DNA from: Misgurnus anguillicaudatus
Lineage: Eukaryota; Chordata; Actinopteri; Cypriniformes; Cobitidae
Reading direction: 5' to 3'
DNA: 64,000 nucleotides
Assembly: GCF_027580225.2 (NCBI RefSeq)
Contig: NC_073341.2
Location: 9,644,001-9,708,000, forward strand
Shown here: piece after piece, positions 4,213 through 62,254 of the stretch
How the letters are laid out: each line of letters begins with the position of its first letter
Position numbering within the stretch: position 1 is the first letter of the stretch
Notes under the pieces: model-generated
What the model saw: the letters and a program-made list of their open reading frames with translations, nothing else
What the model was told of the DNA's origin: nothing
Databases searched by the model: none
Program-made: the position numbers and the translations under genes

Positions 4213-4271
4213 TAAAACAACTGCATGCTATTTTTTACATATCTGTTCGGTTGTCAGACATGAAACGAGTA

Positions 4272-5809
4272 CCCAGCTAGAAATAAAAAGTTCTAAGAAC
4301 GTTCCCTGGGGGTTCCCAGTGTTCCCGGGGGCATTCTGCCGGCGTTGAAGGCGGCTAGTTTTTTTTGAGTTCTGGGGACGTTTCTGTTGTCTGGGCGTTG
4401 GAGTGGTGTTGCATTTTGCCATTTTTGGACGTTGTGGCAATGTCATGTTTTGGTGTTCACACAATGTTTAAAACAACAGCTGTTTATTATATTGACTTGT
4501 TTGATTGTTATGTAAATGATAGAGAAACATTGCATTTTATTATTTTAGAAAACATTATTTCTGAATGTTCGGTGGATGTATTGCTGTGGGGAACTCAATT
4601 CACTTGCTGGGTTTGGATGTTGATGTTTCGTTTTGGGTCACCCTTGTTGTGATTCGTGTTTGTTTTGGTTGGTCTCTTGACACTTGACTTTTTGCCTGCT
4701 AGTGTTAACTTTGTGTTAATGCACCACATTTGTTATGAAAAGTTATTAGTGTATTACTGTGGTCGTTGGTACACAATGGTAAAGATCATCACCCCATCCA
4801 TTCACCAATCAAAAGTTCATTTTCTGCCAATACTGCACACCAGATCCAACTCCTTCACAGCAGCCCGTCACCAAGGAGTTCCAGAAACTCCGGACAAAAA
4901 AAATACGCTGTATAGTTGGGATGCCCAAACATCAAGAATCAGACCATGAATCTCAACCATGGTGACAATTAAAATTGTTTAAAAAATCCTTATTTATCCA
5001 TGCTGCAGTGCATGCTGGGAGTCCTGAATGAGGTTTGTAATTTGTTAATACCCAGCATGCATTGCAGCATGAAGTTTTTCATTTGATTGTCGCCATGGTT
5101 GGGATTCGTGGTCTGATTCTTGGTGTTTGTGCATCCCAGTTATACGGCGGATGTTTTTTGTCCAGGGTTTCTGGGGCTCCTTGGTGACGGGGTGCTGTGA
5201 AGGTGCTGGATCTCGTTTACATTTTTGACAGAGGATGGACTTTTGATTGGTGGGTGAATTGGGTGATGATCTTTGCCGTTGTGTGCCAACAGCCACAGAA
5301 TAACACTATTAACTTGGCATGTTCGTGGCAAATGTGGTGCATTGATACAAAGTTAACACAACCAGGAAAAAACTAGCAAGCAAAAAGTCAAGTGTCAAGA
5401 GACCAACTAAAACAAACACGAATCACAATAAGGGTGACTTAAAATGAAACAAAACATCAACATCTAAACCTAGTAAGTGAATTGAGTTTTCTACAGCAAT
5501 ATATTTACTGAACATTCAGAAATAATGTTTTATAAAATAATAAAATGCAATGTTTCTCTATCATTTACATAACAATTAAACAAGTCAATATAATAAACAG
5601 CTGTTGTTTTAAACATTGTGTGAACATTAAAACATGACATTGTCATAACGTTTAAAAATGGTAAAATGTAACATTACTCTAACGTTCAGACAACAGAAAC
5701 GTTCCTAGAACTTAAAAAAAACTAGCCGCTTTTCACGTTGGCAGAATGTTTTTGGGAGCATTTGGGAACTTTCGGGGAGCGTTCTTGGAACTTTTTATTT
5801 CTAGCTGGG
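4272..5809. mobile_element. 1.5-kb foldback (palindromic) transposon
   Basis: The left arm (from CCCAGCTAGAAATAAAAAGT) and right arm (to ACTTTTTATTTCTAGCTGGG) are inverted copies over roughly 700 bp each, meeting near 5020-5060 at paired GCATGCTGGG/CCCAGCATGC. TA lies on both sides. The element interrupts a dispersed repeat (4216-4270 and 5812-5930) of which an uninterrupted relative is at 46230-46390. Long frames inside are arm shadows without recognisable domains. Confidence 0.75.
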
Positions 5810-5811
5810 TA

Positions 5812-6549: not shown

Positions 6550-7643
6550 AACCCTTTAACTGCCTGCTCAACCAAACGGTTGAGCACATTTTGAGTCCCT
6601 ATATTTTATTGAGAGGAGTACCTAACTTAACTCAAGCTGATTGAGCCATCTCTACTATTTGTGTAAGATATGTTTTGCCAAAAAAATCCACTAGATATCA
6701 ATGTATCAATCAACAGCAGTTGTCACAACACATCTTGTTATGTGGATTTTAGAAATAAAAAAATCACTTCTGTTATATGAACTGTTCTTGTTGAAATTTT
6801 GCAAGGAAACCATATTTTTTTGACATAATACACTGTAAGAGCCCTAACTTTACAAAATTATGTTACTTGGTGCCATGAAAAAACTTTCATATGTTTTGAA
6901 TAATTTTTCAAAAACATGCTCAACCAAACGGTTGATTTGTCACTTAATGGTAAAAGTACAAAAGCTAGGGTAATGTTTTCAGATCATCCATTTCTGCAGT
7001 CAGAGTGTACTATTTGCCATGAAATATACATTTCTGATCATTCACAGCTATGAATATGACACAGCTATTGTTATTTCTTATTTAATATATTGAGATCATT
7101 TCTTAAGTATGTATTTTTGCCACTTCTGGATATTTTTTTGAAATAACTATAATGAATTCATATAATTAATGTATGGAAATCATAATTACTCATTAATTAA
7201 TCAATAATTACTTCTTAAATGATGTTTTAAATTGTTTGAAGGATTGTTTGCAATGTTGGCTTACTCTACACAGCATTGCTGGTTTACAAAAAAATTTTAA
7301 AGGGGCCATGTCACCAGACTTTTTTAAGCTGTCAAATAAATCTTTGGTGTCCCCAGAGCACATATGTGATGTTTTAGCTCAAAATATCATATAAATAATT
7401 TATTATAGCATGTTAAAATTGCCACTTTGCAGGTGTGAGCAAAAATGTGCAGTTTTGGGTGTGTCCTTTAAAATGCAAATGAGCGGATGAAATGCAAATA
7501 CCGATCACAATGATGGTGGTTTGTTGAAATTAAAACTTAGTTGTGCTGTGAATTATTTTCTCTGTCTCTCCCTCTCTGGATTAAAACACTGGAAATGGCA
7601 GTGCTGTGGTTGGAAAGTGCAAATTAAGGGGTGGTATTATTAT

Positions 7644-29093: not shown

Positions 29094-32000
29094 CGTTCCC
29101 TTTCGAGAGCGGTCACTCGACATTGCGTCCGCTGACGCTATGGGGAAACTCCTCCCTCTTCCGGTTTCTGAAGCTTTTATTGAACAACGCCAGTGTTCTG
29201 GCCGGTGCCGCCCATGGCAGCCTTGTGGGGGCTGGACTTCCACTGCTGTGTAGCCTGTTTGGGCGGCAAAATACTCAGATTCTTTCTCTTCACCGTGACT
29301 GAAGCGTCTCGCCGTAGATCGTCGCACTTGTGAGGGACGCAAGGATCGCGTCCCTTACACGCGTTCCGGCAGAATTTTACAAGGATTTTGAGCTTCGCTC
29401 CTCGAGTGAAGAACCGTATATCTAATGGACTCCGAGATATATCGAATAATTGCGTTCTCGGCAGCAAACCACCGCCGCCAGAGCGCCGTTGGTGGCAATG
29501 CTGTCAAACTGAGGAGAACGTCGCGTGCGTTCCACGGTAACGTACCCGCCCTATTAGCCTCATACCCCCGGGGTATCCGAGGTTACGGACGCGGGAAAGA
29601 CACAAGGCTTCCTTTCCCCACCTACGCAGTGCGGAAAATGCCACAGTGTGCACAATACATACCGTTGCAATACCCTCTCATATATGTTTGTCTTGTACTT
29701 ATAGCGTGCTTCGGCCGCTCCCCTTACATGATTAGACCCCCACCCTGGTGTCTGCTTTGTAATTTAACACACTTCGGCCAGTGCTAGCATGCACGACCCC
29801 CTTCGGGACCGGTCGCATGCGAGCACAGCGTGCAGACGGCTCCTTTCATAGACATGGCCGTCTGTGACGCTTGTGTGGATGTAACTTAATATTTTCCTTG
29901 GCTTCTTTGTGTGTATACAGTGCGCTCTGGCTGGTTTTAAACGTTTCAGCCATTAGCACAGCGGCTGGCCTAACATAACATTATGCTCGCCTCGGCTGTC
30001 CCGCGTGAGTCGCGCCCATTTTGGCCACGTCACTACGCGCGCTATTTTGCGTAGCGTCATACGTTCACAAGGACCTGCTATTCTTCGGTCGTACTGAGGG
30101 GGGCAGCAATACACCATTAATGTGTCTAAGCTGCCGCAAAAATTATACGAGAAGAAACGTTACGTATACAGAGAGTTATACTTGTGCCTGTTATCCATGC
30201 TACACTTATTGCTCTTCGTATGATCAGTGATGGTACCGCATCACACACCACACACACATTCACGCCCCTCATCTGTTTCGGGTGACGACGGGAATATGTG
30301 TTGGCTATGCTTAAATGCTTTCAGATGTTGTGTGCAATGGCCGCTGACGGGCAGCGAGCTACCAATCAGCACAACAACATCCTTCTGTGCCCTGTTGACA
30401 TTCCCTCTGCACTTGTCCTCTTTCAACTATGTGCCAATTGAGACCATATATTTAGCAATATACAGCTCTTACGGAGGATACTCAGCGCGCTGCGCTCAGC
30501 CATACTCTGAATGTGCCCGTTATACACGCGCTGCAAAGAAAAAGGGGGGAGGATAATGTCGGGTTTGATCCTTCGCACTGAGTAGCGATCCGTATCAAAA
30601 CGCAATGCACAACTCACAGTGCTCAACCCCGCTCACCATGCATCCGTTACACACGAGCTGCAGAGCAATGGGGACAGACCGAGTATAGCGAAGTGTGTTG
30701 AGTGTGGCCGCTCGCTTCGCACAGCGATCTGTCTCGACACACATACACACATCTAAGCAGTGCACAATGCATCTCGCACGCCCCCGATTGGTGGCAACGT
30801 TGCTCTATACTTACGCATTGCACTTTATATATATATTCTTTCATATACGTATATATATTTATACATTTCTTATAGCAGCCTATACGCCTGGCTATTAATG
30901 TATATTTGCATTGAATAGAGGCTTATTGTACTCCATTCCACTATATATATATATATATATATACTCATACGTATATTTATATATATTTATACAGTAATAG
31001 CAGCCTACATGCCTGGCTATTAATGTATATCTGCATTGAATAGAGACTCATTGTACTGCTTGAAACTATATATACTCATACGTATATTTATATTTATGCA
31101 TTAATAGCAGCCTACACGCCTGGCTATTAATGTATATCTGCATTAAATAGACTCTTGTACTGCTTGACACTATATATATTTATATATATATATACTCATA
31201 CATATATTTGTATATATACACATCTTTAATAGCAGCCTACACGCCTGGCTATTTATGTATATTGACATTGAATAGAAGGCTATCTCTCTCCTCACTCATC
31301 TTGCTCTTAGCTCCCTGGCTGAATGCAGTGAGCCGATGTGGATGTAAACTTTTAGGAGTTATGTTGCTGTACCAACAGAGGATTACTATCGTGCCTTACA
31401 CATCCATGCAGTGTTCAGGCAATATCTCACTACAAACACAGGTATCTGACTCCCTGCGTGCGCGTGGCGAGCTGTTACTAAGTTGTTCATTCTTAAGGAA
31501 GTGTGTCTCTTTCTCTCGGGTTCTGCATCCGACCTTGCACAAAGCAGCAAGCCACTGCAGACCCAGACTTGGTTTTTATATGGCTCTATGTGCAGCAAGT
31601 GAACCAGTACCCTTCAGCGGATCACTCCGCTAGATGATTCACACGCGTCTGGGTTGTGCACTGTGTGGTACAGTTCAGGAGTTTGCAACATCACTGTACA
31701 GCCGTTAACAAACTCTATTAAATGGCAACCTTGCTTCAAAGCACACAGTATGTAACTGGCACCCGACACGCACAGACGACCGGTTACTATCCGTTCCAGT
31801 GTATAAGGAGTGTATCTCCTCGCTCGGTGCTATTGCAGAACCAAGCTCTGTTCTTCCATGGCTCTGTGTAACACACCATTGCTTTATGCCACACAATATG
31901 TAACTGGAATCCTGTGCGCTGCAATCCCTTACAGAAATGTCCCAGATGCGTGGAGTCGAATCTGCACTTGTATCCTACATTCAGCCATCCAAGCGGTGAG

Positions 32001-34359
32001 CTGTGACAGGTTTGACTGGTCGGCCAACAGTGCATGTCTGAACACACAACCCCTGTGGCCCTACAGCAGCCTCTCAGGCACATATGGCTCGCTCGGCGCC
32101 ATTATGATTTGTCATGGGTTTGTAACGTCTCCATATGATGGGTGGCTCACACACCTATGTTTAGCAGCAGGCTTGTTCCACGGCTGACAACATATACTAT
32201 AATAGGCACACGCATGTGTGATCGGAGCCACTGCAAACATGTCAATATGGAGCTACAACATCCCGATCGCTCGGCAGTGTTTAGCCCATTACCTTACCCT
32301 GTACAGCACTCAATTCCTCCCTTGGCTAACGCCGCTGTGATACAGAAGGGAGAGAATTATGAACACCCGCTTTATAGGGTATTTGTATATACTATTACCC
32401 AGAGCGGCTGCCAATTTGATTCGACACAGACCACCCCAGCTGTGCAGACCTGTCGCAGAATCGGCGCAGTGCGCCTTTACTGAGTCTGGAGTTTGCGAAC
32501 GGGTAATATAGTTGTTACCTGACGAGAGAGGTAGAACAGCTTGTGCAGCCACTATTCTCTCACCCTTTACTATGACCTCTGTTGTGATAGGAGACTACTA
32601 GCCGCGCCGGTGGTGCTTATAGCAGGCTTTATGTAGACCCGCACACATTCACAGGGTGTAACGCTGTTCCCTCTTAGCTGAGTGTAATGCGCATCCTGCT
32701 ATCTTATTGCCCGTTTGGGACTGTACCAACCAGCCACAGACACACTCCTTTGATTAAAGTAGTTTCTGCTTGCGTGCGTGTGAGCATATAAGCACAGTGT
32801 GCATGCCAGCTTTACGTTTATGTGCTTCATGCGAGCCGTCCCTCTCAGGAGCACTCTGGATATGAGTCTGCTCTGAGATATTCCACCCGAGACACTGCTG
32901 TGCTGGTGACGAACGCCTCCGTGGTGGACCGGCTTACAAGTTCACAGCGCACTACCTGCTGTACCAGACAGGAATTTGCGCCTGCTCTTCATTAAGCAGC
33001 TCATGTCCTGGCTGCCGCAAATGCGACACAGACTTAAGGGCTGTTAAGGACTTTAGAATGTTTGAGATTGTTTGGACATAATGAATCAGTACATGATGGT
33101 GGAAAGTGTAAGCTTTGTCCTTATCAGAGTTACGCTTTGTATGAAACACGTTGTGCTCGGCCAAGTGCCAGCGGTTACGTGTTGCCCTACTTTGGTTTTG
33201 CTGCTTATACACGCAAAATCAGTAAGGACAGCGAGCCCTTTCTACAAGACGCCCTCTTTACGCAGCACCTGTAATGGTGTGAAGCAATGACTACGACCCG
33301 TTGCACTGTCACGTGTCGAATGTTCTATCTTTGCAGCAGTGCACAGATGAAGGAAAAGTGGGCTGTCTACCCCAAAGGTTTTTCATGCAGCTATCGCTGC
33401 ATTTCATGCTGGTGCCTTGGGTGCGCAGTGGCCAGGCACAATTAATTCTCTTAAGTGAGAGAAGTGGCCAATCATTTGCATATTTTAGTGCCGTCATGGG
33501 CTGTACATGCCCTTAAGGGACTATATGTGCCAAAACCACCCTCAGCGCAGTTAGAGCATAGACGGTTGCATTCTACCTTCCCATCTAGCTGATGTGAGCT
33601 GTGCCCGGTATGAGTGTTATACATTTATCTAAGCACTCCGCTCTGACATTACTGTTAGAGCAACTCTTTATGCTTCAGAGATGGGCTGTGGCATTTGTTA
33701 ACGATCGCTGTGACCTGCCCAGCTCATTCTAAGAAATTTCCCTGCTCCACCTAAGCAGTCAGCTGCTGGGATCCAGCTGGGGTCACTGGATCATTAGGTG
33801 ATAATGAGGGCAGCACATTACTGCCACACTGGCATAGCGGTGTTATTCTAATTCGGCAGTCGCACTATCCGACGCCTCTTCATAGTTTGTACTGGATGGC
33901 CAGTACAGCTGATGTATTAATATGGAGCCGCGTTTTCGCTTCTTCCTTACTTTCACGCTAGCTATCTTGGCCATCGTGCATCATATGTTAATACCAGCAA
34001 ATACTCTGCGTGGATATGCTTGCTACCGCCCACATTGGGTCGGCCTAGCCGTTGCTGTTGTAATGTTACAGGTTGCTATCTGCTGTAGGGCTGCAATAAG
34101 ACCTACATGCAGCCTGTGACTGTATGCATTCTGTTCTGTATAAGCTCTGGATTGAGTCCCTAGAGACTCAGGCATCCAATCTACTGTGCGTTAGCTTACA
34201 CAGACTGGACGGGGATTGTGCACCGACTCAGGCATTGTGGTGCACAGACTTGAGTAAGCTTCACTGGAGCTGCTCTTCGCTGTTCTCACGGCGTGTTTGA
34301 ATACATTCCCCATAGCGTCAGCGGACGCAATGTCGAGTGACCGCTCTCGAAAGGGAACG
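29094..34359. mobile_element. 5.3-kb element with perfect 54-bp terminal inverted repeats, no recognised genes
   Basis: 29094-29147 and 34306-34359 are identical in inverted orientation (starting CGTTCCCTTTCGAGAGCGGT). The adjoining left subterminal ~150 bp recur inverted in the 34357-34676 element. The inside is less AT-rich than its surroundings and holds a ~120-bp tandem repeat (30869-31285). The open frames it contains (up to 141 codons) lack domains and are not supported by splice sites. I cannot assign a superfamily and found no clean target duplication. Confidence 0.65.
30869..31285. repeat. Tandem repeat, about 110-120-bp unit, four copies
   Basis: Each unit reads AGCAGCCTA(C/T)(A/G)CGCCTGGCTA then TTAATGTATATCTGCATTGAA and a TATATA run. 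The four copies differ mainly in the length of the TA microsatellite. Confidence 0.8.
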
Positions 34360-34676
34360 TCTCGGTTACTATCGTAACCTCGGTTCCCTGAGAGACGGGA
34401 ACGAGACATTGCGTAAGCCGCCGTGTCACTGCTCAGATCAGCTCTACTGTTCGTTCAATCGAAAGAATCTGAGTATTTTGCCGCCTAAACAGGCTATATA
34501 GTAGCGGAAGTCCCGCCCCTATAAGGCTGTCATGGGCGGCATTGGCCAGAACACTGGCGTTGTTCAATAAAAGCTTCAGAAACCGGAAGAGGGAGGAGTT
34601 TCCCCATAGCGTCAGCGGACGCAATGTCTCGTTCCCGTCTCTCAGGGAACCGAGGTTACGATAGTAACCGAGACGT
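34357..34676. mobile_element. 320-bp relative of the 29094-34359 element
   Basis: ACGTCTCGGTTACTATCGTA and its exact inverse close the unit; the arms pair for about 55 bp. Its right half repeats, inverted, the subterminal text of 29110-29290 (AACACTGGCGTTGTTCAATA, AAACCGGAAGAGGGAGGAG). It abuts the larger element with only ACG shared between them. Confidence 0.7.
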
Positions 34677-34857
34677 TTTATCACCTGAATTTGCGTATTT
34701 TGCACGGATACTCTCTCGCTCGCTTCATAACGGTTAAGAATGTTGCTAGGTAACGGGAACAACAACGGTAGCTTATACTGACAAATTATATTTTACACAC
34801 GCTTACATTTCTAGACTGTGCAAAATATTGAAAAAATAGTACAACTTAGCCACTTAC

Positions 34858-35233: not shown

Positions 35234-36286
35234 GTTTTACTGCTGCTCTTTGCAGTTAACTACATGTGTGATTTCTTATATAATAGAAATCTAATAAGTC
35301 AAATATGATCCTATAGGTCAAAATGAAATTTCGATAGGGTGTATAACAATGTCAAACAGGATTTGTTAAATCAAATACAATCCTAAAGGATACACTGAAA
35401 ATCCACTAAAATAAATCTGAATGTCCAATAGGATTGTATAATCCTTTAGAATCATACAGGACAAATTAAAATCCCCTAAAATATATCTGAATGTCCAATA
35501 GGATTTTAAGAATCCTTTAGAATCCTACAAGACAAAGTTAAAATCCACTAAAATATATCTGAATGTCCAATAGGATTTTAAGAATCCTTTAGAATCCTTC
35601 AAGACAAAGTTAAAATCCACTAAAATATATCTGAATGTCCAATAGGATTTTAAGAATCCTTTAGAATCCTACAAGACAAAGTTAAAATCCACTAAAATAT
35701 ATCCGAATGTCCAATAGGATTTTAAGAATCCTTTAGAATCCTACAAGACAAAGTTAAAATCCACTAAAATATATCTGAATGTCCAATAGGATTTTAAGAA
35801 TCCTTTAGAATCCTACAAGACAAAGTTAAAATCCACTAAAATATATCTGAATGTCCAATAGGATTTTAAGAATCCTTTAGAATCCTACAAGACAAAGTTA
35901 AAATCCACTAAAATATATCTGAATGTCCAATAGGATTTTAAGAATCCTTTAGAATCCTACAAGATTCTATGAAATTCTAATAGGATTTTTTGACAAGGGA
36001 TACTAGCCGGCTTACAGCTGCGTCCAAAATCTCGTGAGCTCTCGCCGAACGAGCGCTGATTTCAGCTAAACCCAACATCTCGCGAGATTTGGCCATAGCT
36101 GTACTTCATAGCCAGAACCCTCAAACTGCTGAAGTTTTTGAACAGGACAAAGGATGCCTATGCCCAATGTTAATGATTACAAAGTGTGATAGGGAAGTGT
36201 AGACATTTTATGTATAAATATACAAATTATTTTATTTGTATTTTATTATGATTACTTGAGAAAGACACAATTTATTGTTACTTTTG

Positions 36287-36317
<31 letters not shown>

Positions 36318-37298
36318 GTTTTACTGCTGCTCTTTGCAGTTAACTACATGTGTGATTTCTTATATAATAGAAATCTAATAAGTCAAATATGATCCTATAG
36401 GTCAAAATGAAATTTCGATAGGGTGTATAACAATGTCAAACAGGATTTGTTAAATCAAATACAATCCTAAAGGATACACTGAAAATCCACTAAAATAAAT
36501 CTGAATGTCCAATAGGATTGTATAATCCTTTAGAATCATACAGGACAAATTAAAATCCCCTAAAATATATCTGAATGTCCAATAGGATTTTAAGAATCCT
36601 TTAGAATCCTACAAGACAAAGTTAAAATCCACTAAAATATATCTGAATGTCCAATAGGATTTTAAGAATCCTTTAGAATCCTTCAAGACAAAGTTAAAAT
36701 CCACTAAAATATATCTGAATGTCCAATAGGATTTTAAGAATCCTTTAGAATCCTACAAGACAAAGTTAAAATCCACTAAAATATATCCGAATGTCCAATA
36801 GGATTTTAAGAATCCTTTAGAATCCTACAAGACAAAGTTAAAATCCACTAAAATATATCTGAATGTCCAATAGGATTTTAAGAATCCTTTAGAATCCTAC
36901 AAGACAAAGTTAAAATCCACTAAAATATATCTGAATGTCCAATAGGATTTTAAGAATCCTTTAGAATCCTTCAAGACAAAGTTAAAATCCACTAAAATAT
37001 ATCTGAATGTCCAATAGGATTTTAAGAATCCTTTAGAATCCTACAAGACAAAGTTAAAATCCACTAAAATATATCCGAATGTCCAATAGGATTTTAAGAA
37101 TCCTTTAGAATCCTACAAGACAAAGTTAAAATCCACTAAAATATATCTGAATGTCCAATAGGATTTTAAGAATCCTTTAGAATCCTACAAGACAAAGTTA
37201 AAATCCACTAAAATATATCTGAATGTCCAATAGGATTTTAAGAATCCTTTAGAATCCTACAAGATTCTATGAAATTCTAATAGGATTTTTTGACAAGG
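34913..37298. repeat. Tandem duplication of the right end of the 13.25-kb element
   Basis: 34913-35996 and 35997-37298 are near-identical, with unit starts GGGATACTAGCCGGC at both. They differ chiefly in the number of 72-bp subterminal units (about 8 versus 11) and a few bases. The first copy ends in its own ATAGGATTTTTTGACAAGG terminus at 35980-35998, so the element has two right ends in series. Confidence 0.85.
35420..37285. repeat. 72-bp minisatellite arrays (two blocks)
   Basis: Units begin GTCCAATAGGATTTTAAGAA and contain TTTAGAATCCTACAAGAC and AAATCCACTAAAATATAT. Block one is 35420-35985 and block two 36505-37285, separated by unique sequence 36000-36500. Within the blocks, variants such as CCTTCAAG and ATATCCGAAT recur at the same spacing, showing that runs of units were copied together. 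Confidence 0.85.
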
Positions 37299-49098: not shown

Positions 49099-49271
49099 AG
49101 GGGGCATTCCACAAGACGTTTTTAAGATATTAAATAAATCTTTGATGTCCCCAGAGTACATATGTGAAGTTTTAGCTCAAAATACCATATAGGTAATTTA
49201 TTGTGGCATGTTAAAATAGGCACTTTATGGGTCTGAGCAAAAATGCACAGTTTTTGTGTTTATCCCTTTAA
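49099..49271. repeat. Left part of R1 repeat interrupted by the 6.7-kb transposon
   Basis: AGGGGGCATTCCACAAGAC after TTAA matches the start of 7301-9275. The body words 'ccccagagtacatatgtgaa', GTTTTAGCTCAAAATACC and GAGCAAAAATGCACAGTTTT follow in the same order. It stops at TTAA (49268-49271). The match resumes at 55982 (TTAAATCCAAACGAGC against TTAAAATGCAAATGAGC at 7472), giving the pre-insertion site. Confidence 0.8.
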
Positions 49272-49462
49272 AGAGCAACTTGAAAGTTAAACCACCCATT
49301 CACTCAAAGTACAGAAAAATACTGTAGGAAATAGATTTAAAAAAAAATATTTTTCTAAATGCACTAATTAGGCTTCTGGGGTCATTTTTGTAAGAAAATT
49401 TTAGACCCGCCTCTAAAAACCGCCAAACCGGAAGTGACATCACGAGAGGCGCACGCCGCACG

Positions 49463-50542
49463 ATGGATCGCAATGACAGTTTTTCGGATGCTGAGGAAGT
49501 AGTAAATGTTTATTCTTACTCATATGACGGACCACAGCCTTACAATTATGAGCCAGTTATGCAGCCAAGAGAGCAGGGACAAGCCAGGATTAGACAGGTC
49601 GGTCAAAGGAGACAAATTGAGTTGTGGTGTGAGGAGAACCAGTGGAGAACTGGGCAGGTTTCATGGTGAGAGATCAGTGTTTATAGATTCATACACGTCA
49701 GGTAACGAGATGTAATATGTGCTCAGATCATAAAATTGGACAGATTATCATCATTAATCATGCAATAGCAAAGAAAGTACTGGTCATCTAGTGTTGCTAC
49801 CTATCAGTAACATAAACTAGTAAGGGTTGAGCAGGTGTAATGTCATTCGTTAATATCCCTCCCCACTTACGTTACGTGATGCAGCGGTTTCTCATCACAG
49901 CAGGAGAGGGACAGGAGCATTTACCCGAAACCCGTTCTTGTTTAATAGGTGCTTGTGTGGGAAATGTGTGCCTATGGTCACAGCTGAGGAAAGTCAGTGC
50001 TGCAGGGAGTTGGATGCATACTGGGCATTGGTGGAAAACATCACGCCCAGACTTCAAGTACAGTGCCTGACTCTGCATCCGGGCTTTGAGGCGTGTTGTC
50101 TAAATCCATATGTGCTACAGATAGCCTACATGCACTTTAGACAGGAACATGGACCTCTCCATGCCAGCAGAAATGAGTAGGTTTAGGGCAGAGATAATGT
50201 TTTACTATTACCAATTTATGTAGTACCTATGTGTGTAAGGGATAGTAAATTTAACTAATTTGAATATTAAAACAATCTGAATGAATTTGTTTTAATTACA
50301 AGTTGTGTATATCACACTTTTGATGCCACTGTTATAAGACAATAATTACATATTTTGTCCCCATCTCCAGACAGTACCGCTACACAGCATACAGGCAGGT
50401 TGTCCGCTGGGCCTATGGTGTTCTGGGCAGACACATCAGAAAGCCATTACCTGCATGTGTTGTGTCCGCTATTAGAAGCCAGTTTCCGGAGGAAGGTGGT
50501 CTTTATAAAGGCTTTGAATGGCCCCATTTTGGTGATGAATAA
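49463..50542 (+). CDS. P2X7 receptor intracellular (ballast) domain protein, element-borne
   Basis: Exons 49463-49665, 49949-50176 and 50371-50542 join in frame (phases 2 and 2) to 200 residues. The N-terminal ~55 are acidic and Tyr-rich (SYSYDGPQPYNYEP). From residue 68 follows WCLCGKCVPM and SQCCREL, the cysteine cluster that in P2X7 holds two zinc ions. Then come CLTLHPGFEACCLNPYVLQ, the AYMHFRQE helix, YRYTAYRQVVRWAYGVLGRH, LPACVVSAIRSQFPEE and YKGFEWP, all in the order of the P2RX7 C-terminal domain. The P2X extracellular and transmembrane parts are absent, so this is not an ion channel. In P2X7 the domain binds zinc and guanine nucleotides; a similar role here is inference. AATAAA overlaps the stop. 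The gene lies inside the TTAA-flanked element, convergent with the transposase. Splice sites are GTGAGA, GTAGGT and normal acceptors. Its job in the element is unknown. Confidence 0.85.
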
Positions 50543-50745
50543 AACAAAGAAATTACTATTTGTCTTAATTTACCATAGTTTACATCAAATATATACCAAG
50601 CAGATCTGCATGTGTGGTAAATTAAATGCAGTTTTTATTTATGTAGCACCTAGAGAGAAATACACCATCTCATCCGTTTAAAAGCATTTCATAATTGTTC
50701 AGTAACTTCAGTAATTTGGGAGATTATCACAGCAATGCGTTAAGG

Positions 50746-51238
50746 CAGTGGTTCTCAAACTTTGTTGGCATCTCTTCGTGCCCCCCCAAAGAAAGTGTAT
50801 AACACAAAACATTGCGAAACTTAAAATTTGAAGTAAACAAAACATTACATTACACACACACTGTAGTGGTATTGGTTAGTAGCCTTATTTTTCTGAGGTT
50901 TAATTACACAGGATTTATGATGTTTTTGGGGCGGTTTCCCAGACCAGGATTACCTTAATCCAGGACTAGGCCTTAGTTTAATTAGGAAATATAACTAGTT
51001 TTAACAAACATGCCTTACTAAAAACAGTACTTGTGTGCATTTTGAGGTAAAACAAAGGGCCCTGATGTATTTTAAGATATGTAAGTGCAAGTTGTTTTCA
51101 GTTTGGAGAGCTCTTAAAAGTGTTTAAGTATAGAACTAGTCTAATCCTTGTCCGGGAAACCGCCCCTTTATTTTATAAGAAGGCATTAACCTGGGGCCCC
51201 CTGGTACCACCTCAGTGCCCCCAGTTTGAGAACCACTG
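50746..51238. mobile_element. hAT element between the two transposon genes
   Basis: CAGTGGTTCTCAAACTTTG and CAGTTTGAGAACCACTG are inverted ends. The flanks CGTTAAGG and CGTTATAG are an imperfect 8-bp duplication. The transposase stop codon (51243-51241) falls within the right copy, so insertion left that reading frame complete. It interrupts only the shared 3' region. Confidence 0.8.
50938..51166. mobile_element. MITE nested in the hAT element
   Basis: GGGGCGGTTTCCCAGACCAGG and CCGGGAAACCGCCCC are inverted ends, with TAATCC/GGATTA also pairing. TTT flanks both sides. This is the fourth nesting level (MITE in hAT in Kolobok-type in R1). Confidence 0.75.
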
Positions 51239-51240
51239 CG

Positions 51241-54200
51241 TTATAGTATGTTGAATCTTGAATGCTGTGCTTTATATAAGCCAACAGCCTCATCCTTGTC
51301 AATCCTCTGGTAGGAGCTGGAGAGGGGTGCAGGTGCATTTAAAAACAGAACAGTGCTGGATTCTCGTAGACTCTGTGGTGACCTTGAATATTCCACTCTA
51401 AGAGACTCCATGAGGGATGATGCATATGCTGGGGGAAGGAGGCACAAGTTTAGATCAGTCATTGCAGACTCGTGGTCTGATTTACTTAATTATATTTAAG
51501 AACTAACTGAAACTGCTTACTGTATGATGGCTTTTCCTTAACAGGACGGACTACCCAGCCACCTTTGCGGAACCTAGGGTAGCGAACAGCATAACGCGCC
51601 TCACCATCACTGGTTTGAGCATCTTGTCTGTCGGAGTTGTGGTTAAAGTGCAGGGCCGCAAGGAGAAGTCTGTAAAAAAAGTATAATTTCTACCCATTAC
51701 AAGTTGTACATATGTGAATAAACCCAGAAGAAAAAACAACACACAGAACATGTGGAAAACACTTATATATAGTGAGAGAATATGTAAGGAATAATTGACG
51801 ACGGGCCATTGAATTATAAGAAAATATACACACCAAGGTGGTAATGCGGCACGACGCAAAGCGGATATGCATCATTTTTTTAATAATTCAAAGGACCGGA
51901 GTCAATTATTCCGCTTATACTACGGTTACCACAAACATTGCTCTTTTAAGACATTTGAAAAGTTAGGTGTGCGGTTTACAGAAAAATAATCAACACCCAT
52001 AGAACATTTCTCAGCCAATCAGAATGCAGCATTCAACAGACCGTGGTATAATAAAATATAAAACATTCCTACTACCTGTTCATAGGGTACAACAAGATAA
52101 TGCAGTTTTGAAAAAATTTGGATTGCCAAGGTTTTAATTTCTTTGTTCAAGCCCTTTGAAGTGGTGGTGATTCAAATTTATTTTATTTTTTGAGAGCTTT
52201 ATGCAATGCTGTTGTTCAGACATAAATAAGCTTGTAATCATTTGCTGCAAATTTAATGAAAGATGGGCTGGCATGCATTAGTTTCAGAGGGTGCTCATTC
52301 TTTCATCATAACATACTAACCGGCTGTACATTCCAAGGAAGGAGAACCCAGTGTGTTTTGGTGCAAAGTGCAGCATGAGAGAGTGAAATGCCTTTAGTGA
52401 AAAGGTCTGATGCTGTGGGGACAACTGACGAACATCCTTCACCAGCGCTGTTCTAGAGGCTATACTCTCCAGTTTAACTGCTACAGTTGATCCTACAGAA
52501 ACACACATTTTGTTTTTACAATGAAATTATGTTAAAATGAGTATCTAGTGCACTTACACTGGATAATGTGAATGTTGAGTATGCAAGAAATAACCAGATG
52601 TATTTTAGACTTAGGTCTCTGAAATGTCAAACAGCCGTTATTTAGAAAACAAGCACAATGATGTTTCTCTATAAATTTGCGGTCACATAATGAACCTAGT
52701 AGGTTGTACCTGGTTCCAGCCACGCCTTGTTTCTTGTTTCCCCCTCTAGAGGTAGATGTGCACAGCAGGGAAACGTAGGAGTGTCATGTACGTGGATGTC
52801 CTGAACATGGTTGACCATACTTTTCCACTTAGCCTCCATCACATCTGCATCTCCATTAGGAGTGGAAGCTGCAGTCCAGTAGAGATGGTTAATTACAGCT
52901 GGCCTCCACAGCTTCAGATCTTCACAATCCCTGTCCTTTGCAGCAGCATCCAAAGCTTTCCCTACACCTGTTTCAGAACAGACACATACAAAATGTTAAA
53001 AAAGTAAAATGTAATTATAGGCAACCTAAAATAAAACACGTACACACTTACTTTTGCCAATATGCCATATGTCAAAGAAATGGTTGGTTCCCTTTGAACA
53101 CAACTCCTCCCGCACCCATTTGACAACCTAAAACATGGGACACAACACATAGATAACAAAAAAATTTAAGCTGTAAATATAGTCAGCAGAATAATATTTT
53201 GTGTGTACATGTGCGTGTCTTTACCTGCCGATTTCTGTCTGTGATGAGGGCTGACACTTGCATATTTTGCTCAGTCAGAAACCTTATGCTGCGCTTTAGA
53301 CCCTCTAACTCACACCAGCTGCTACTTGGGACTTCTGAGCTCTGTATAAAAACATTTCACCATGTCACTATGTTACATGAGATGGGTGATACTGATATGT
53401 GTGTTTCATAACATGAACTTACCTGTACAAGCTGAACATCTAAAACCTTGTTTATTCGGTCTTCGATCAAAGAATATGTGCCGTACTTTGCACAATGGCC
53501 AGGAGAATCTGACCTACGAATGGCAAGAACAGTTTAATTAAGTATTTAAGCACAAAAATAATACATTGAACAATATTAAGCTATATAAGTGTGCAACCTG
53601 CAGTCACCAGACAGGATCAGTCCCCCACTCATCTCCTTCAGATCTCTTATTATTCCTGCCTGTTCATTCTGCCACGCCTTAATGACAGTAGGAATTGTAT
53701 ACAATCGCTGATGGCGGAAGAAGGTGTTGACAGTGATGCACTGAAGCCCAAAGAGTTTCAACATCCTGATGGTTTGGGTAGCCATGCAACCTGAAAAGTG
53801 TATTGCCCCGCTCAGTAAGAGGTTGCATGCTGGCATATTGCGATGCAGCATTGGCTGGTTCTGCCAGAAACGCTGGTACCCACATGCTGCACAGACCTAA
53901 GAAATGTATAAAAAGGGGAAAAAATTACTATACCATAAAAACATAAATGTATGTAAAGAAAATAAAAAATACAAGTTTGGGAAGTTTTTTTTACATAATA
54001 ATAAACAGCCCTTACCTGCTTTACTTTTAAAAAAGTTCCCTCCTGCTTCTCAACATTTCCTTGCGTTTTTCCAGAACAGGCTGGGCAAATTGTAAAGAGA
54101 GACATCAGCTGGCTTCGGCACACAATGAACTTGTCAGCAGCACTGAATAAAAGAAGGACATTATTTTTTGACTTGACATAATTTGGTTAATACAGATAAT

Positions 54201-55662
54201 CTAAAGTTAAAATAATAAATTCTTACATGTGATCAGGGGGAGTTTCCTGCAGTGTTTCCTCCTCAGATGAATCACTTGTCTTTTCACCTTCTGGTGTCCA
54301 CAACACATCATCAGGTTCGTCCATGAAAAGAGAGGATGAATCATCATCGCTGTGCACAGGACTGGTAGATGGAGCGGATGTTTTTGTCTGAGTCCCCACA
54401 CTAACCATCTTGGGCTGTGCCTGAACAGCTATAACAAAAACAGGTCCAGCTTTATAGAAAAACAGGTCTACCTTATAAAAAATGTGTAACAGCATATCAC
54501 TGCTTAGGTACCGCTGTCAAATCCAACAACAACTCTGTCACACAATCTAAATGTGTTAATTTAGTGGTTTCAAAATGAAAATGAGAAAAAGTGCATCATA
54601 CAGAAATATTTTACTATGTATTTGCCCTTGTGCATTTTGTAAACAGATGGTGTCATGTACAACTACTTTTAGATATGACTACTGGTAATGTACCTGATGA
54701 ACGATGTAAAGGTCTCAGGTTACACTGTGAGCCAAAGTCATGCACTGATGACACAGGGACCAGTGGAGAGAAAGCCTCCTCCTCTGGGTCAGCAAGCACT
54801 GCAGCACTGGCTGTCGACGGATTACCTTCCAAGTCTCCCAACAACTTATTAACAAAACCACATGAAAATACATTATGAATTAGTTGTAGAACGTAACTAA
54901 ACTGTAACTACACGTTATAATATTGTCAAACTGAAAGTACAAGAATGATTTCAATAATTAGATGAAACGTGATGTGGATAACTTGTTAAGCACGACCGCG
55001 ACTGTGAACGTGATTTCAGAAATTATGATGTGATCCGGGATCAACATCATTGTTGGTAACGTTAATAAGTCTTGGTTGGTAATTTGAGGGTTTAAAATAG
55101 GGTTTGAGTTAAGGGTACGATTTGGTATGTCTGATTAAAACGTAGATCCAGGATCACATTTTTACTTGGTGAAATCACGGTGACCACGCAGCTACACATC
55201 ACGTTTTATCTAATTATTATAATAATAATGTTTAAAAACAAGACTTACTGTGCACAGTGTGCGTTTTCGTTCAGCTGCACCTCTGACAGACCCATTATCA
55301 TCCTTTTTCCCGCCGGCGCCATCACCACATGCTGACGACGACGGACCGGGCGGACTTGATGGACGTGCTGCGTGCACCGAAGGAACCGCACCAACTCTGA
55401 GTCTCACGAAGTTTTTGCTTCGGTAGCCCATGTTGAGCTCCATCATATCGCTGTCATTATAATCCTCCGGCCTAAAGTGAACGCTGCACACTACCGCGTT
55501 TTTCGATACAGATGCAGAAGTGAAATCCCGTCTCCTCATCTGCACAAAACGCACCCAGGCACGGAAGACACCGCCGTCCTTGGTCTTTTTCGGAAACCTA
55601 AAGACGCGATGTCCTGACAGACTGGAGTTTGTGCAACCTCCACAAACACAACGATTTACCAT
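51241..55662 (-). CDS. THAP-domain Kolobok-type transposase, apparently intact, 12 exons
   Basis: Exons (high to low): 55662-55249, 54844-54694, 54428-54227, 54142-54016, 53896-53598, 53513-53423, 53341-53225, 53127-53052, 52967-52710, 52492-52321, 51669-51521, 51428-51241. All joins keep phase and give 747 residues without a stop. Residues 1-96 are a THAP domain: C5, C10, C59, H62, W36, FRFP at 21-24 and AVPSV at 92-96. 97-255 is a Ser/Asp/Glu-rich linker. C275-C278 and C300-C303 (CPAC, CAACGY) form a likely zinc ribbon. Candidate catalytic acids lie in SGDCRSDSPGHCAKYGTYSL (D396/D400), ALITDRNRQ (D463) and FFDIWHIGKS (D486); then NHLYWTAASTPNGD and GGWVVRPVKEK. This long fish family is known to me as THAP/Kolobok-like multicopy proteins; which acids are catalytic is inference. 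ATG at 55662 opens the THAP domain directly, and an upstream in-frame codon would add only a hydrophobic stretch. Intron 1 donor is GTAAGT. Confidence 0.85.
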
Positions 55663-55981
55663 GACGATGATAAACAGAAAACCAAAAACCAAAACTATCG
55701 AGAACACACCAAATTGCGACTGCTTTCACTGAAAACCAACCTACTCTGCACTGAGCCAGGGTACAGCCTGTCAGACACTGCGCCTCTGATTACGTAATAT
55801 GACGCGTTGTTGAAAAAAACCGGGATTTTGAGAACTGTCTTAGAAACAGTCACCTTTTTTATAAAATTTATGCGCTCAGAGTGTTGTTAAAAATTTTTAC
55901 TTTCGCATTTAATTTTTATATGGTACTTTCATACAAGGTTATATATTTATCTCACAAAAAATGTTACTTTCAAGTTGCACT

Positions 55982-56060
55982 TTAAATCCAAACGAGCTGC
56001 TCAGGTGGGCAGAGTCTCAAGCGCTCGCGCTATAGACATGACAGAGCATCGAGGAAGATT
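55982..56060. repeat. Continuation of R1 repeat after the transposon
   Basis: TTAAATCCAAACGAGCTGCTC continues the R1 text that stopped at 49271; the following GGGCAGAGTCTCA and AGCGCTCGCGCT agree with the R1 subfamily I remember. The right border of R1 is not resolved. Confidence 0.55.
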
Positions 56061-59014: not shown

Positions 59015-59123
59015 AATCACTATCGCTTGATCGCAGGCTAGATGAACCTGACCGATCAGCTACTTCTTGAAAAGCTGTTATGTCCAAGGATGATGAACCA
59101 AACTGGCAATAGTCTGGTTCCAC
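59015..59123 (-). other. Exon-like piece adjoining the 178-bp array
   Basis: On the minus strand, DYCQFGSSSLDITAFQEVAD and SGSSSLRSSDSD end at a GTGAGTAT donor (59014-59007). A related frame (SSLDLSAFQEATDHG) is at the other end of the array near 60130-60180. The array units between contain a decayed version (SLETCPFQEEDD). The acceptor is not certain. Confidence 0.35.
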
Positions 59124-60190
59124 AAGCTCGCCGTCTCGAGTCCGATGGGACTATACTGCCTGTGTTTCTCACGAGCTGGGTGCAGGTCACATAAACCTGA
59201 CTGACTAATCAGCATGATCTGGTTGAGCATGGGACTCATGGTCGAAAGGACCACATTTAAGATCATCCTCTTCTTGGAAAGGGCATGTTTCCAAGGAAAA
59301 CAAGCTCGCCGTCTCGAGTCCGATGGGACTATACTGCCTGTGTTTCTCACGAGCTGGTACAGGTTACATAAACCTGACTGACTAATCAGCATGATCTGGT
59401 TGAGCATGGGACTCATGGTCGAAAGGACCACATTTAAGATCATCCTCTTCTTGGAAAGGGCATGTTTTCAAGGAAAACAAGCTCGCCGTCTCGAGTCCGA
59501 TGGGACTATACTGTCAGTGTTGTTCACGAACTGGGTGCAGGTTACATAACCCTGACTGACTAATCAGCATGATCTGGTTGAGCATGGGACTCATGGTCGA
59601 AAGGACCACATTTATGATCATCCTCTTCTTGGAAAGGGCATGTTTCCAAGGAAAACAAGCTCGCTGTCTTGAGTTCGATGGGACTATACTGTCAGTGTTG
59701 TTCACGAGCTGGGTGCAGGTCACATAAACCTGACTGACTAATCAGCATGATCTGGTTGAGCATGACGCTCATGGTCGAAAGGACCACATTTAAGATCATC
59801 CTGTTCTTGGAAAGGGCATGTTTCCAAGGAAAACAAGCTCAGCGTCTCGAGTCCGATGGGACTATACTGCCAGTGTTGTTCACGAGCTGGGTGCAGGTCA
59901 CATAAACCTGACTGACTAATCAGCATGATCTGGTTGAGCATGACGCTCATGGTCGAAGGACCACATTTATGATCATCCTCTTATTGGAAATGGCATGTCT
60001 CCAAGGAAACAAGCTCGCCGGCTCAAGTCCGATGGAACTATACCGCCAGTGTTGTTCACGGACTGGGTGCAGGTAAAAAATACCCGACTTAAAATCAGCT
60101 GGTCTCGCAGAGCGCATGGGCTATGGTTGAATGGACCATGATCAGTTGCTTCTTGGAAAGCTGATAAATCCAAGGATGACAAACAAGACC
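59124..60190. repeat. Tandem array, six units of about 178 bp
   Basis: Units start AAGCTCGCCGTCTCGAGTCC at 59124, 59302, 59479, 59657, 59835 and 60011, so the period is 176-178 bp. The first five are 90% or more alike by eye; the last is diverged. Units contain CATGATCTGGTTGAGCATG and GGTCGAAAGGACCACAT. Because 178 is not a multiple of three, the frames on the minus strand are not a repeat protein. Confidence 0.85.
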
Positions 60191-60266: not shown

Positions 60267-62254
60267 TCAATGCAGGCCGGATGGGCCTCCCTGAGGATCA
60301 AATGGCTCCACTTCGTCCTCATTTCCGCAGCAACAGCAGGCTTTTTTGATAGCCTGCAATGCACTGCGCAAGAAAGCACAGATTTTCTTCCAGCTTTTTG
60401 GTTTTGGTTCTGAAAGACAAAAATAGAAAAGATGAACAACAGATGTTACCACCAGATTAGAGCCCGATCGATATGGCTTTTTTGGAAACCCATAAAGTAA
60501 TAACACTGGGAAATATATGTACAGTATTGTGTATTAATTTATTATATCAATATTTAATGCCAGCATATGGATTCTAACGCACGAAGACAGACAATGATAA
60601 ATCCACATATCGATGTAATGTCCCACACTTATTCCTGATCAGAGATCTGTAAATTCAAATCTCACTAGCCAATGGGATTAAAGTATGGTTAAGTCCTACC
60701 TACACAAGAGGTTTGTGCCAGAATGGCAAATGTAAATTTGTAAACCTTAAATGAAAACCTTGCTTAGAAAACAGTTAAGAAAGAATGTGAAACCTGTGTT
60801 AGATTTTTGCCTTTGAGATGTTTTCTTTCGTTCTCATTTTACGTTTGTTTGTTTAATAAAAAGTTCCATTAACATCATATTTGGGGTGTCATTATAATGG
60901 TGTAATACACTGACCTGGTAAGCTTCTCTCCTCCTCAATGCTTTCTTGATCCGCTGCAGGTGTAGACACAGCTGGAAAGATCGGACACAAAGAAGACATT
61001 ATAAACTTCTCTAAAATCTAACACATTGTTACTGTATAGTTATTATGGTATTGTGAAAAACGTTATAAAACCTACTACATAAAAATGTCATATATGCTAA
61101 TGTTACATGTGTGTTATTACACAGTTTATTCTTATTGTAAAATGTGGAAAAAGAAGTGTTGTAAAATTATATATATTTAATGTATCATTATAATAGTGTA
61201 ACACAGTGATTCTCAACTCGAGGTCCACTGCTCTGCACATTTTGTATGTCTCTCTCATCTGACACAATCAGTTCAGTTCATAGAGATAAGGGAGACAAAC
61301 AAAATGTGCAGAGCAGTGGGCCTCCAGGCATAACCTTGAGAACCACTGGCGTAACAAACTGACCTGCAGGGACCCACTCTTCATCATCAATTGCCCCGTG
61401 AAGGACAAACCTTGTTTCGCAAACTGTGGGTGCAGAGATGCACAACCTCCGTTGTGAATCTTGTTCACTGCAGCTTGTAACTTCTTGCCCCTGAGCTGGT
61501 GTAGACACAGCTGGACAAAAAGAAGACATTATAAACTTCTCTGAAATCTAACACATTGTTACTATTGTAACATTATAAAACCTTTTACATAATATTTAAT
61601 ATATGCTAGTGTTATATATTTGTATTATTCCACACCGTTTTTGCGTTTATTCTTATTGTAAAATGTGGAAAAATATATAGAATGAGTGTTATAAAATTAT
61701 ATATTTAATGTGTCATTATAATAGTGTAAGAGACTGACCTGCAGGGACCCACTCTTCATCATCAATTGCCCCGTGAAGGACAAACCTTGTTTCGCAAACT
61801 GCGGGTGCAGAGATGCACAACCTCCGTTGTGAATCTTGTTCACTGCAGCTTGTAACTTCTTGCCCCTGAGCTGGTGTAGACACAGCTGGACAAAAAGAAG
61901 ACATTATAAACTTCTCTGAAATCTAACACATTGTTACTATTGTAACATTATAAAACCTTTTACATAATATTTAATATATGCTAGTGTTATATATTTGTGT
62001 TATTCCACACCGTTTTTGCGTTTATTCTTATTGTAAAATGTGGAAAAATATATAGAATGAGTGTTATAAAATTATATATTTAATGTGTCATTATAATAGT
62101 GTAAGAGACTGACCTGCAGGAGGGACAGCCCACATTTGCAAAGCTGGGGGGGCAGAGACGCACAACCTCAGTTGAGCATCTCCCTCCCCACTGCTTGGTA
62201 CGAGATTTACAATCCCTTCAGCTGATGAGGACGAGATCTTATCCTGTCCATCAG
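60267..62254 (-). CDS. Five phase-1 exons of an unrecognised protein; exon-duplicated, 5' end not found
   Basis: Minus-strand exons: 62254-62114 (47 codons), 61885-61739 (49), 61510-61364 (49), 60971-60915 (19) and 60409-60267 (stop TGA). All splice in phase 1 with pyrimidine-rich acceptors and GTCAG donors. The second and third are near-identical (TPAQGQEVTSCSEQDSQRR, RFVLHGAIDDEEWVPAG), and the first and fourth are diverged relatives (LRLCVSAPPALQMWAVPPAG; STPAADQESIEEERSLP). The introns between duplicates are also alike, so a block of about 375 bp duplicated recently. The final exon, KPKSWKKICAFLRSALQAI then KKACCCCGNEDE, is amphipathic and Cys-rich, possibly lipid-modified. No enzyme domain is visible. 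The N-terminus and promoter must lie to the right, perhaps beyond the LTR element. I do not recognise the family. Confidence 0.5.

Follow-up and report, generated by a model that had tools for sequence, protein, structure and literature searches.

A recently mobile Kolobok transposon with a P2X7-tail gene as its second gene in Misgurnus anguillicaudatus

Positions 49272-55981 of the 64,000-nucleotide stretch analysed here (the window) are a 6,710-bp Kolobok element whose family has recently been mobile and which carries, next to a THAP-domain transposase gene, a second gene for a protein related to the cytoplasmic ballast domain of the P2X7 receptor. We consider it highly probable that this is a transposon of the KolX-bearing Kol0 lineage (an assignment made from the published description of that lineage); in this reading KolX would serve it in trans as an accessory protein, and copies with a working transposase would mobilise the others. 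The pairing of such a transposase with a P2X7 tail was already published in 2022, and the element is a well-preserved fish example of it; what is added here is a recently mobile fish family, a lysine at the predicted catalytic Glu (transposase residue 612) in two of its three open copies, which suggests movement in trans, and a transposase tree that conflicts with fish relationships, which suggests horizontal transfer.

According to the available passages of the earlier work, elements of the Kol0 lineage encode KolX, a protein resembling the cytoplasmic ballast of P2X7; fusion of KolX to a P2X4-like gene is proposed to have given rise to P2X7 (a transposon-to-receptor direction), and nanor is regarded as a probable domesticated form of KolX (Kojima & Bao 2022, PMC9587614). 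Capture of the P2X7 tail had been described before that, without a transposon in the passages available, along with a tick protein that joins a 'TAHP' domain (read here as THAP) to the ballast (Rump et al. 2020, PMC7016195), and a review mentions Kolobok and P2X7 once each (PMC9319628). Within the open-licence PMC literature, the name KolX was found only in PMC9587614, as was the combination of P2X7 ballast with transposon or transposable element, and no functional test of KolX was found there.

Element ends and the two genes

The element lies between two TTAA target duplications read directly from the sequence (49268..49271 on the left and 55982..55985 on the right; no strand is assigned to these or to the element). 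Its terminal inverted repeats, AGAGCAACTTGAAAGT on the left (49272..49287, plus strand, 5'-AG) and AGTGCAACTTGAAAGT on the right (55966..55981, minus strand, CT-3'), agree at 15 of 16 bases and at 16 of the first 18, which bears out the matching 18-bp termini and flanking TTAA of a preliminary description made from the sequence. Among the 76,998 pairs of TTAA spaced 0.5-12 kb apart in the window, three have an end match of at least 14/18; one is the element and the other two both fall within a single unrelated palindrome at 4.3-5.8 kb. A host repeat was likewise said to be split at TTAA, and this holds: the repeat in the flanks is interrupted there, an uninterrupted copy lies at window positions 7293-7484, and the joined flanks align to that copy at 83% over 193 columns, only about 12 of which lie past the junction. 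The terminal dinucleotides AG...CT have the 5'-RR...YY-3' form given as a Kolobok criterion in the passages available (PMC9587614), and the original Kolobok assignment is upheld by the TTAA, the RR/YY ends, the THAP transposase and KolX.

Inside the element KolX (plus strand) and the transposase (minus strand) are convergent; both splice models were pieced together manually, guided by splice sites and open frames, and their exons are predictions. The KolX model comprises 200 amino acids in three exons with GT-AG introns, at 49463..49665 (ATG at 49463), 49949..50176 (where the WCxCGxC motif starts at the splice) and 50371..50542 (stop at 50540-50542). The transposase model comprises 747 amino acids in 12 exons with all 11 introns GT-AG. 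Exon 1 (55249..55662) holds the THAP domain, located by its PF05485 match, and is followed by exons 2 (54694..54844), 3 (54227..54428), 4 (54016..54142), 6 (53423..53513), 9 (52710..52967), 11 (51521..51669) and 12 (51241..51428, stop at 51243-51241), which come from the splice model, together with exons 5 (53598..53896, predicted catalytic D396), 7 (53225..53341, predicted catalytic D463), 8 (53052..53127, FDIWH motif) and 10 (52321..52492, residue 612, the predicted catalytic Glu that is Lys here), for which the model was combined with an alignment. The claim of two convergent, fully open genes stands as regards the open frames and the GT-AG at every intron; being open is not the same as being intact, however, and the window transposase has Lys at the predicted catalytic Glu.

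Profile searches agree with both protein identifications made at the outset. Residues 5-97 of the transposase match the N-terminal THAP domain (PF05485, E 1.7e-11). Residues 41-193 of KolX match P2RX7_C (PF20478, E 3.2e-15), which is its sole Pfam match, the P2X channel domain being absent; at E<=0.001, its PDB matches are P2X7 chains only (four distinct sequences, best 5.7e-9). The first 60 residues of KolX are acidic (pI 4.4; the remainder, pI 7.7), and its C-terminus contains eight residues that are invariant in an alignment of 23 of 31 relatives, including the counterparts of P2X7 R546 and C572. An AF2 model of one KolX relative (P0001), built with 22 others, had a mean pLDDT of 47.9, too poor for use.

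KolX shares with the P2X7 ballast (PF20478) its sequence and part of the cysteine pattern (WCxCGxC, a later C, PxC), and by this homology we infer a zinc-binding fold of the P2X7-ballast type. KolX differs from the receptor in having no channel domain and in having one Cys where P2X7 has PSCC. The ballast domain is characterised by the binding of two zinc ions and guanine nucleotide. In rat P2X7, the passages available list R546, H547, R574, R578 and K583 as GDP contacts (PMC7016195). KolX retains the counterparts of R546 and R578, whereas by alignment Tyr, Val and Glu take the places of H547, R574 and K583, respectively; since the first and fourth contacts are kept and the others changed, nucleotide binding by KolX is possible, but not indicated.

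Several other repeats were observed in the window. A nested palindrome of 1.5 kb with arms about 82-92% complementary occupies 4270-5811, and inverted repeats at 29094-29295 and 34306-34677, separated by about 5 kb and with 54 bases matching at 100% and 186 at 90%, are possibly the ends of another element. Tandem arrays with units of 72, 178 and 375 bases lie at 35398-37264, 59122-60074 and 61351-62120, respectively. A search of the window against Rfam gave no matches at gathering scores.

Copies in the same genome and residue 612

Searches of the same genome returned at least 40 matches to the left end and at least 41 to the right end. Pairing of ends on one strand within 20 kb gave 34 pairs (six left and seven right ends were unpaired), namely three of 6,710-6,719 bp, one decayed copy of 6,360 bp, 28 of 3.3-3.7 kb, and two longer. 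The preliminary description had proposed a search for further full-length copies with the same ends, TTAA and both genes, and two such sisters of the window copy (L009 and L010) were found, 99.66% and 99.78% identical to it and at different TTAA sites; in each, both genes are open and every transposase intron has GT-AG ends. The decayed copy (L011) is 91-95% identical in its main pieces; both of its genes contain stops and frameshifts, and its left end is altered. TTAA is present on both sides in 29 of the 30 copies readable at both ends, a count that excludes five copies with an end missing or altered (L011, L016, L018, L019, and L020). The remaining copy, the 3.4-kb L038 (G000:C23:15070516-15074017), has TGAA on both sides, which possibly reflects non-canonical target use. 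Together, these copies show that the family was recently mobile.

Of the 28 short copies, 27 were read, in groups of 7 and 20. Their median pairwise identity is 98.3%, and TTAA flanks both sides in 7/7 of the first group and 19/20 of the second. The refuting result named at the outset, copies lacking the P2X7-domain gene while its orthologues sit at conserved loci outside the element, was not found: the short copies read have no working KolX, but recognisable KolX remnants are present in 27/27, and broken transposase pieces in all seven that were searched with the transposase. The pattern CxCGxC...C, which is uncalibrated on intact KolX, matched 0/27. As the short copies keep remnants of both genes, their ancestors were two-gene elements, and it is proteins produced elsewhere that move them, which shows that KolX is dispensable in cis.

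Sequence divergence was compared between the window copy and its relatives, indels aside. Against L009, and likewise against L010, there are 12 differences in 3,863 non-coding positions and 2 in 2,847 coding positions, the latter made up of 2/2,244 in the transposase and 0/603 in KolX. Against L011 the corresponding values are 213/3,238 for non-coding sequence, 84/2,225 for the transposase and 25/592 for KolX, and the codon changes are 16 non-synonymous and 8 synonymous in KolX and 53 and 26 in the transposase, which is no strong sign of constraint on either gene; it should be noted that these counts are small and that the L011 branch is partly neutral. Taken as a whole, the comparison suggests selection on both genes.

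Further insertions were observed within the copies. A hAT-like insert with the terminal inverted repeat CAGTGGTTCTCAAACT occupies 50746..51238, two bases beyond the transposase stop; it has an imperfect 8-bp duplication (6/8), is common to all three near-identical copies, and contains a second, nested insert with its own terminal inverted repeats at 50928-51166. Positions 50929-51202 are missing in L011. The segment 51782-52050 in a transposase intron, with a palindrome at 51788-51912, is present in the three near-identical copies and not in L011.

The transposase was aligned as the window protein with 43 of its 111 relatives. D396 and D463 are each present in 42 of the 43 rows with a residue, the window included, and Glu occupies position 612 in 38 of 41 rows, again with the window counted; the three rows that differ are the window protein (Lys), P0038 (Lys) and P0096 (Asp). 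Conservation is just as high in further acidic columns, among them E431 (43/44), E439 (44/44), E441 (43/44), D400 and D486 (both 42/43) and D598 (39/40). In a structural model of the relative P0037, the counterparts of the predicted triad are D349 on a strand, D416 just after a strand, and E571 in a helix. Because the other acidic columns are as conserved, the triad D396/D463/E612 is a prediction from residue order and the P0037 model, and with it the role of residue 612 as the catalytic Glu. A fold search of the transposase model gave no matches under E 0.001; weak matches to Hermes and to the integrase cores of retroviruses, among other RNase H-like enzymes, are only consistent with this prediction. 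The motif HFNHN (NEN in many distant relatives) was also considered as the site of a lost catalytic Glu and was set aside, since its column varies among close relatives and column 612 is nearly constant.

Lys612 is found in the window copy and L009, and Glu612 in L010 and L011. As Lys612 is common to two copies at different sites, at least one insertion event involved a Lys copy. This suggests, as the simplest account, mobilisation in trans by a transposase made elsewhere; a less simple alternative is that Glu612 is dispensable.

P2X7-tail genes across the genome and in other fish

The PF20478 profile detected at least 118 matches in the same genome, merging into at least 116 loci, many of them partial; these are lower bounds, as 150 of 207 candidates were scored. 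None were found in 14 control genomes. Eight of the 116 loci were read, a non-random set comprising the window copy with both sister copies, three non-receptor genes with open frames, the best match, and one fragment. A Kolobok-like transposase is convergent to the tail gene at six of these eight, in line with the proposal of the P2X7 domain as a recurrent second gene, and two lack a transposase. The three open non-receptor genes (L043, L044, and L045) represent three distant lineages, 31-36% identical to three KolX-type queries, and each has Kolobok-like transposase matches downstream on the opposite strand (best E 4.4e-19, 8.5e-13, and 2.6e-11). When five transposase motif patterns were run on these loci, D.R.DS[PA]G and D.WH occurred at 3/3, LE.[FY]H at 1/3, and TDRH and NEN at 0/3; the transposase genes there may have decayed or be interrupted by introns. 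TTAA-flanked ends were not found at L044 and L045, and L043 has three TTAA-flanked end pairs, each matching at only 12/16, two of them spanning. The best PF20478 match (L046, 192.7 bits) has a P2X7-like PSCC motif and no transposase match, and is taken for the putative last exon of a P2X7 receptor. The fragment (L047) is a truncated ballast-domain gene, and no match to a Kolobok transposase lies less than 5 kb from it. Its frame around 4711-5221 lies near long open frames of 497 and 662 amino acids.

A KolX protein search returned 31 relatives, 26 of them with an organism name, all of which we take to be fish genera; the genera of the nearest proteins are presumably cyprinoid. The name P2X purinoceptor 7 or 7-like is borne by four relatives, and a further 13 take theirs from the P2X7 intracellular domain. 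A search of viral contigs for KolX gave 16 pattern matches, none confirmed. The transposase core has 111 relatives in fish and invertebrates, under names other than Kolobok or no name. A Pimephales P2X purinoceptor 7-like protein and a transposase relative, also from Pimephales, come from contigs of equal size (9,717,021), and are probably encoded on one contig; this example supports the earlier suggestion that stand-alone 'P2X7-like' fish gene models can be transposon genes.

In a tree of the window transposase and 27 of the 111 relatives, the window protein is grouped first with a pair of Pimephales proteins (100/98) and next with notothenioids (93/87, under the usual mark), Leuciscus chuanchicus groups with Alosa (100/100), and L. 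waleckii groups with Perca (98/91). The hosts paired in this way are distant relatives, which makes horizontal transfer of the transposase likely; hidden paralogy or mis-assigned contigs offer an alternative account of the conflict. In the KolX tree (18 rows), the window protein groups with Anabarilius, Pimephales and Labeo (100/96), few of the remaining forks are resolved, and the notothenioid protein is not beside the window. The KolX tree thus does not show joint travel of the two genes, and its resolution is too poor to confirm horizontal transfer.

The role of KolX and comparison with known systems

In the mechanism that we favour, the THAP domain of the 747-aa transposase would bind the element ends, and its RNase H-like D/D/E domain would cut and insert at TTAA; the domains themselves are either detected or modelled. 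KolX would be supplied in trans as an accessory protein, and we see about an even chance that its conserved basic C-terminal helices contact either the transposase or the DNA of the ends. The 3.4-kb deletion copies, and probably Lys612 copies such as that in the window as well, would be mobilised by copies whose transposase works.

The role assigned to KolX has rivals of different standing. Two-gene elements can encode their own repressors, and KolX could be a regulator that limits the element or silences its rivals rather than a helper in cut-and-paste. The acidic N-terminus would suit a protein partner and nothing direct speaks against this reading, which we nevertheless regard as unlikely. 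It is also conceivable that a P2X7-tail exon of the host was caught by the element and is carried, as KolX, as inert cargo with no role; DNA transposons sometimes catch pieces of host genes. The movement of short copies without a working KolX of their own and the ratio of 16 non-synonymous to 8 synonymous changes against L011 are compatible with such a passenger. Against it, KolX is identical in the three full copies, differs from L011 less than the non-coding sequence does, and recurs in convergent pairing in three distant lineages; moreover, lacking the second Cys of PSCC, it is not a recent copy of a receptor tail. We therefore judge inert cargo to be quite improbable. That the two genes are chance neighbours, with only the transposase belonging to the element, has next to no probability, as no supporting point was found, both genes lie within the same ends in 3/3 full copies at different sites, remnants of both occur in 7/7 short copies searched for both, and the pairing recurs in distant families. 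For this family, chance neighbourhood is refuted.

A bolder extension of the accessory-protein reading is that KolX acts as a transposition switch dependent on zinc and guanine nucleotides, from which P2X7 inherited its nucleotide-sensing tail, and that the two-gene element, with both genes aboard, has passed horizontally among teleosts, so that most fish tail genes other than P2X7 would be live or dead parts of Kolobok elements. We offer this as speculation and give it little credence.

The near-identical two-gene copies, the short copies moving in trans and the variants at residue 612 form a ready system for the role of KolX, and learning what KolX does would indicate what P2X7 gained. Fish gene models named 'P2X purinoceptor 7-like' can be transposon genes, which is a warning for annotation. 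The element also connects a transposon gene with the tail of a major inflammatory receptor, a link that is itself already published.

Among known systems, Kol0 (Kolobok-1_XT), as described in the available passages, has in common with the present element TTAA duplications, 5'-RR/YY-3' ends and a ballast second protein, and its DDD/E transposase has a predicted counterpart here (PMC9587614). It comes from another host and family, whereas here three near-identical copies have both genes open. The Nanor/ZCD proteins are likewise short, consist of the ballast domain alone and have no conserved synteny in fish, but are given in the accessible text as one or few (<10) genes per species, compared with at least 116 loci here, fragments included (PMC7016195). 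No transposon is named for them in those passages, the link having been made in PMC9587614. The Xenopus XKol and T2-MITE families also have THAP Kolobok transposases and TTAA-flanked ends, one family starting with AGAGCAAG; in the passages available the transposase alone is described, in contrast to the two genes of the present element (PMC6004289).
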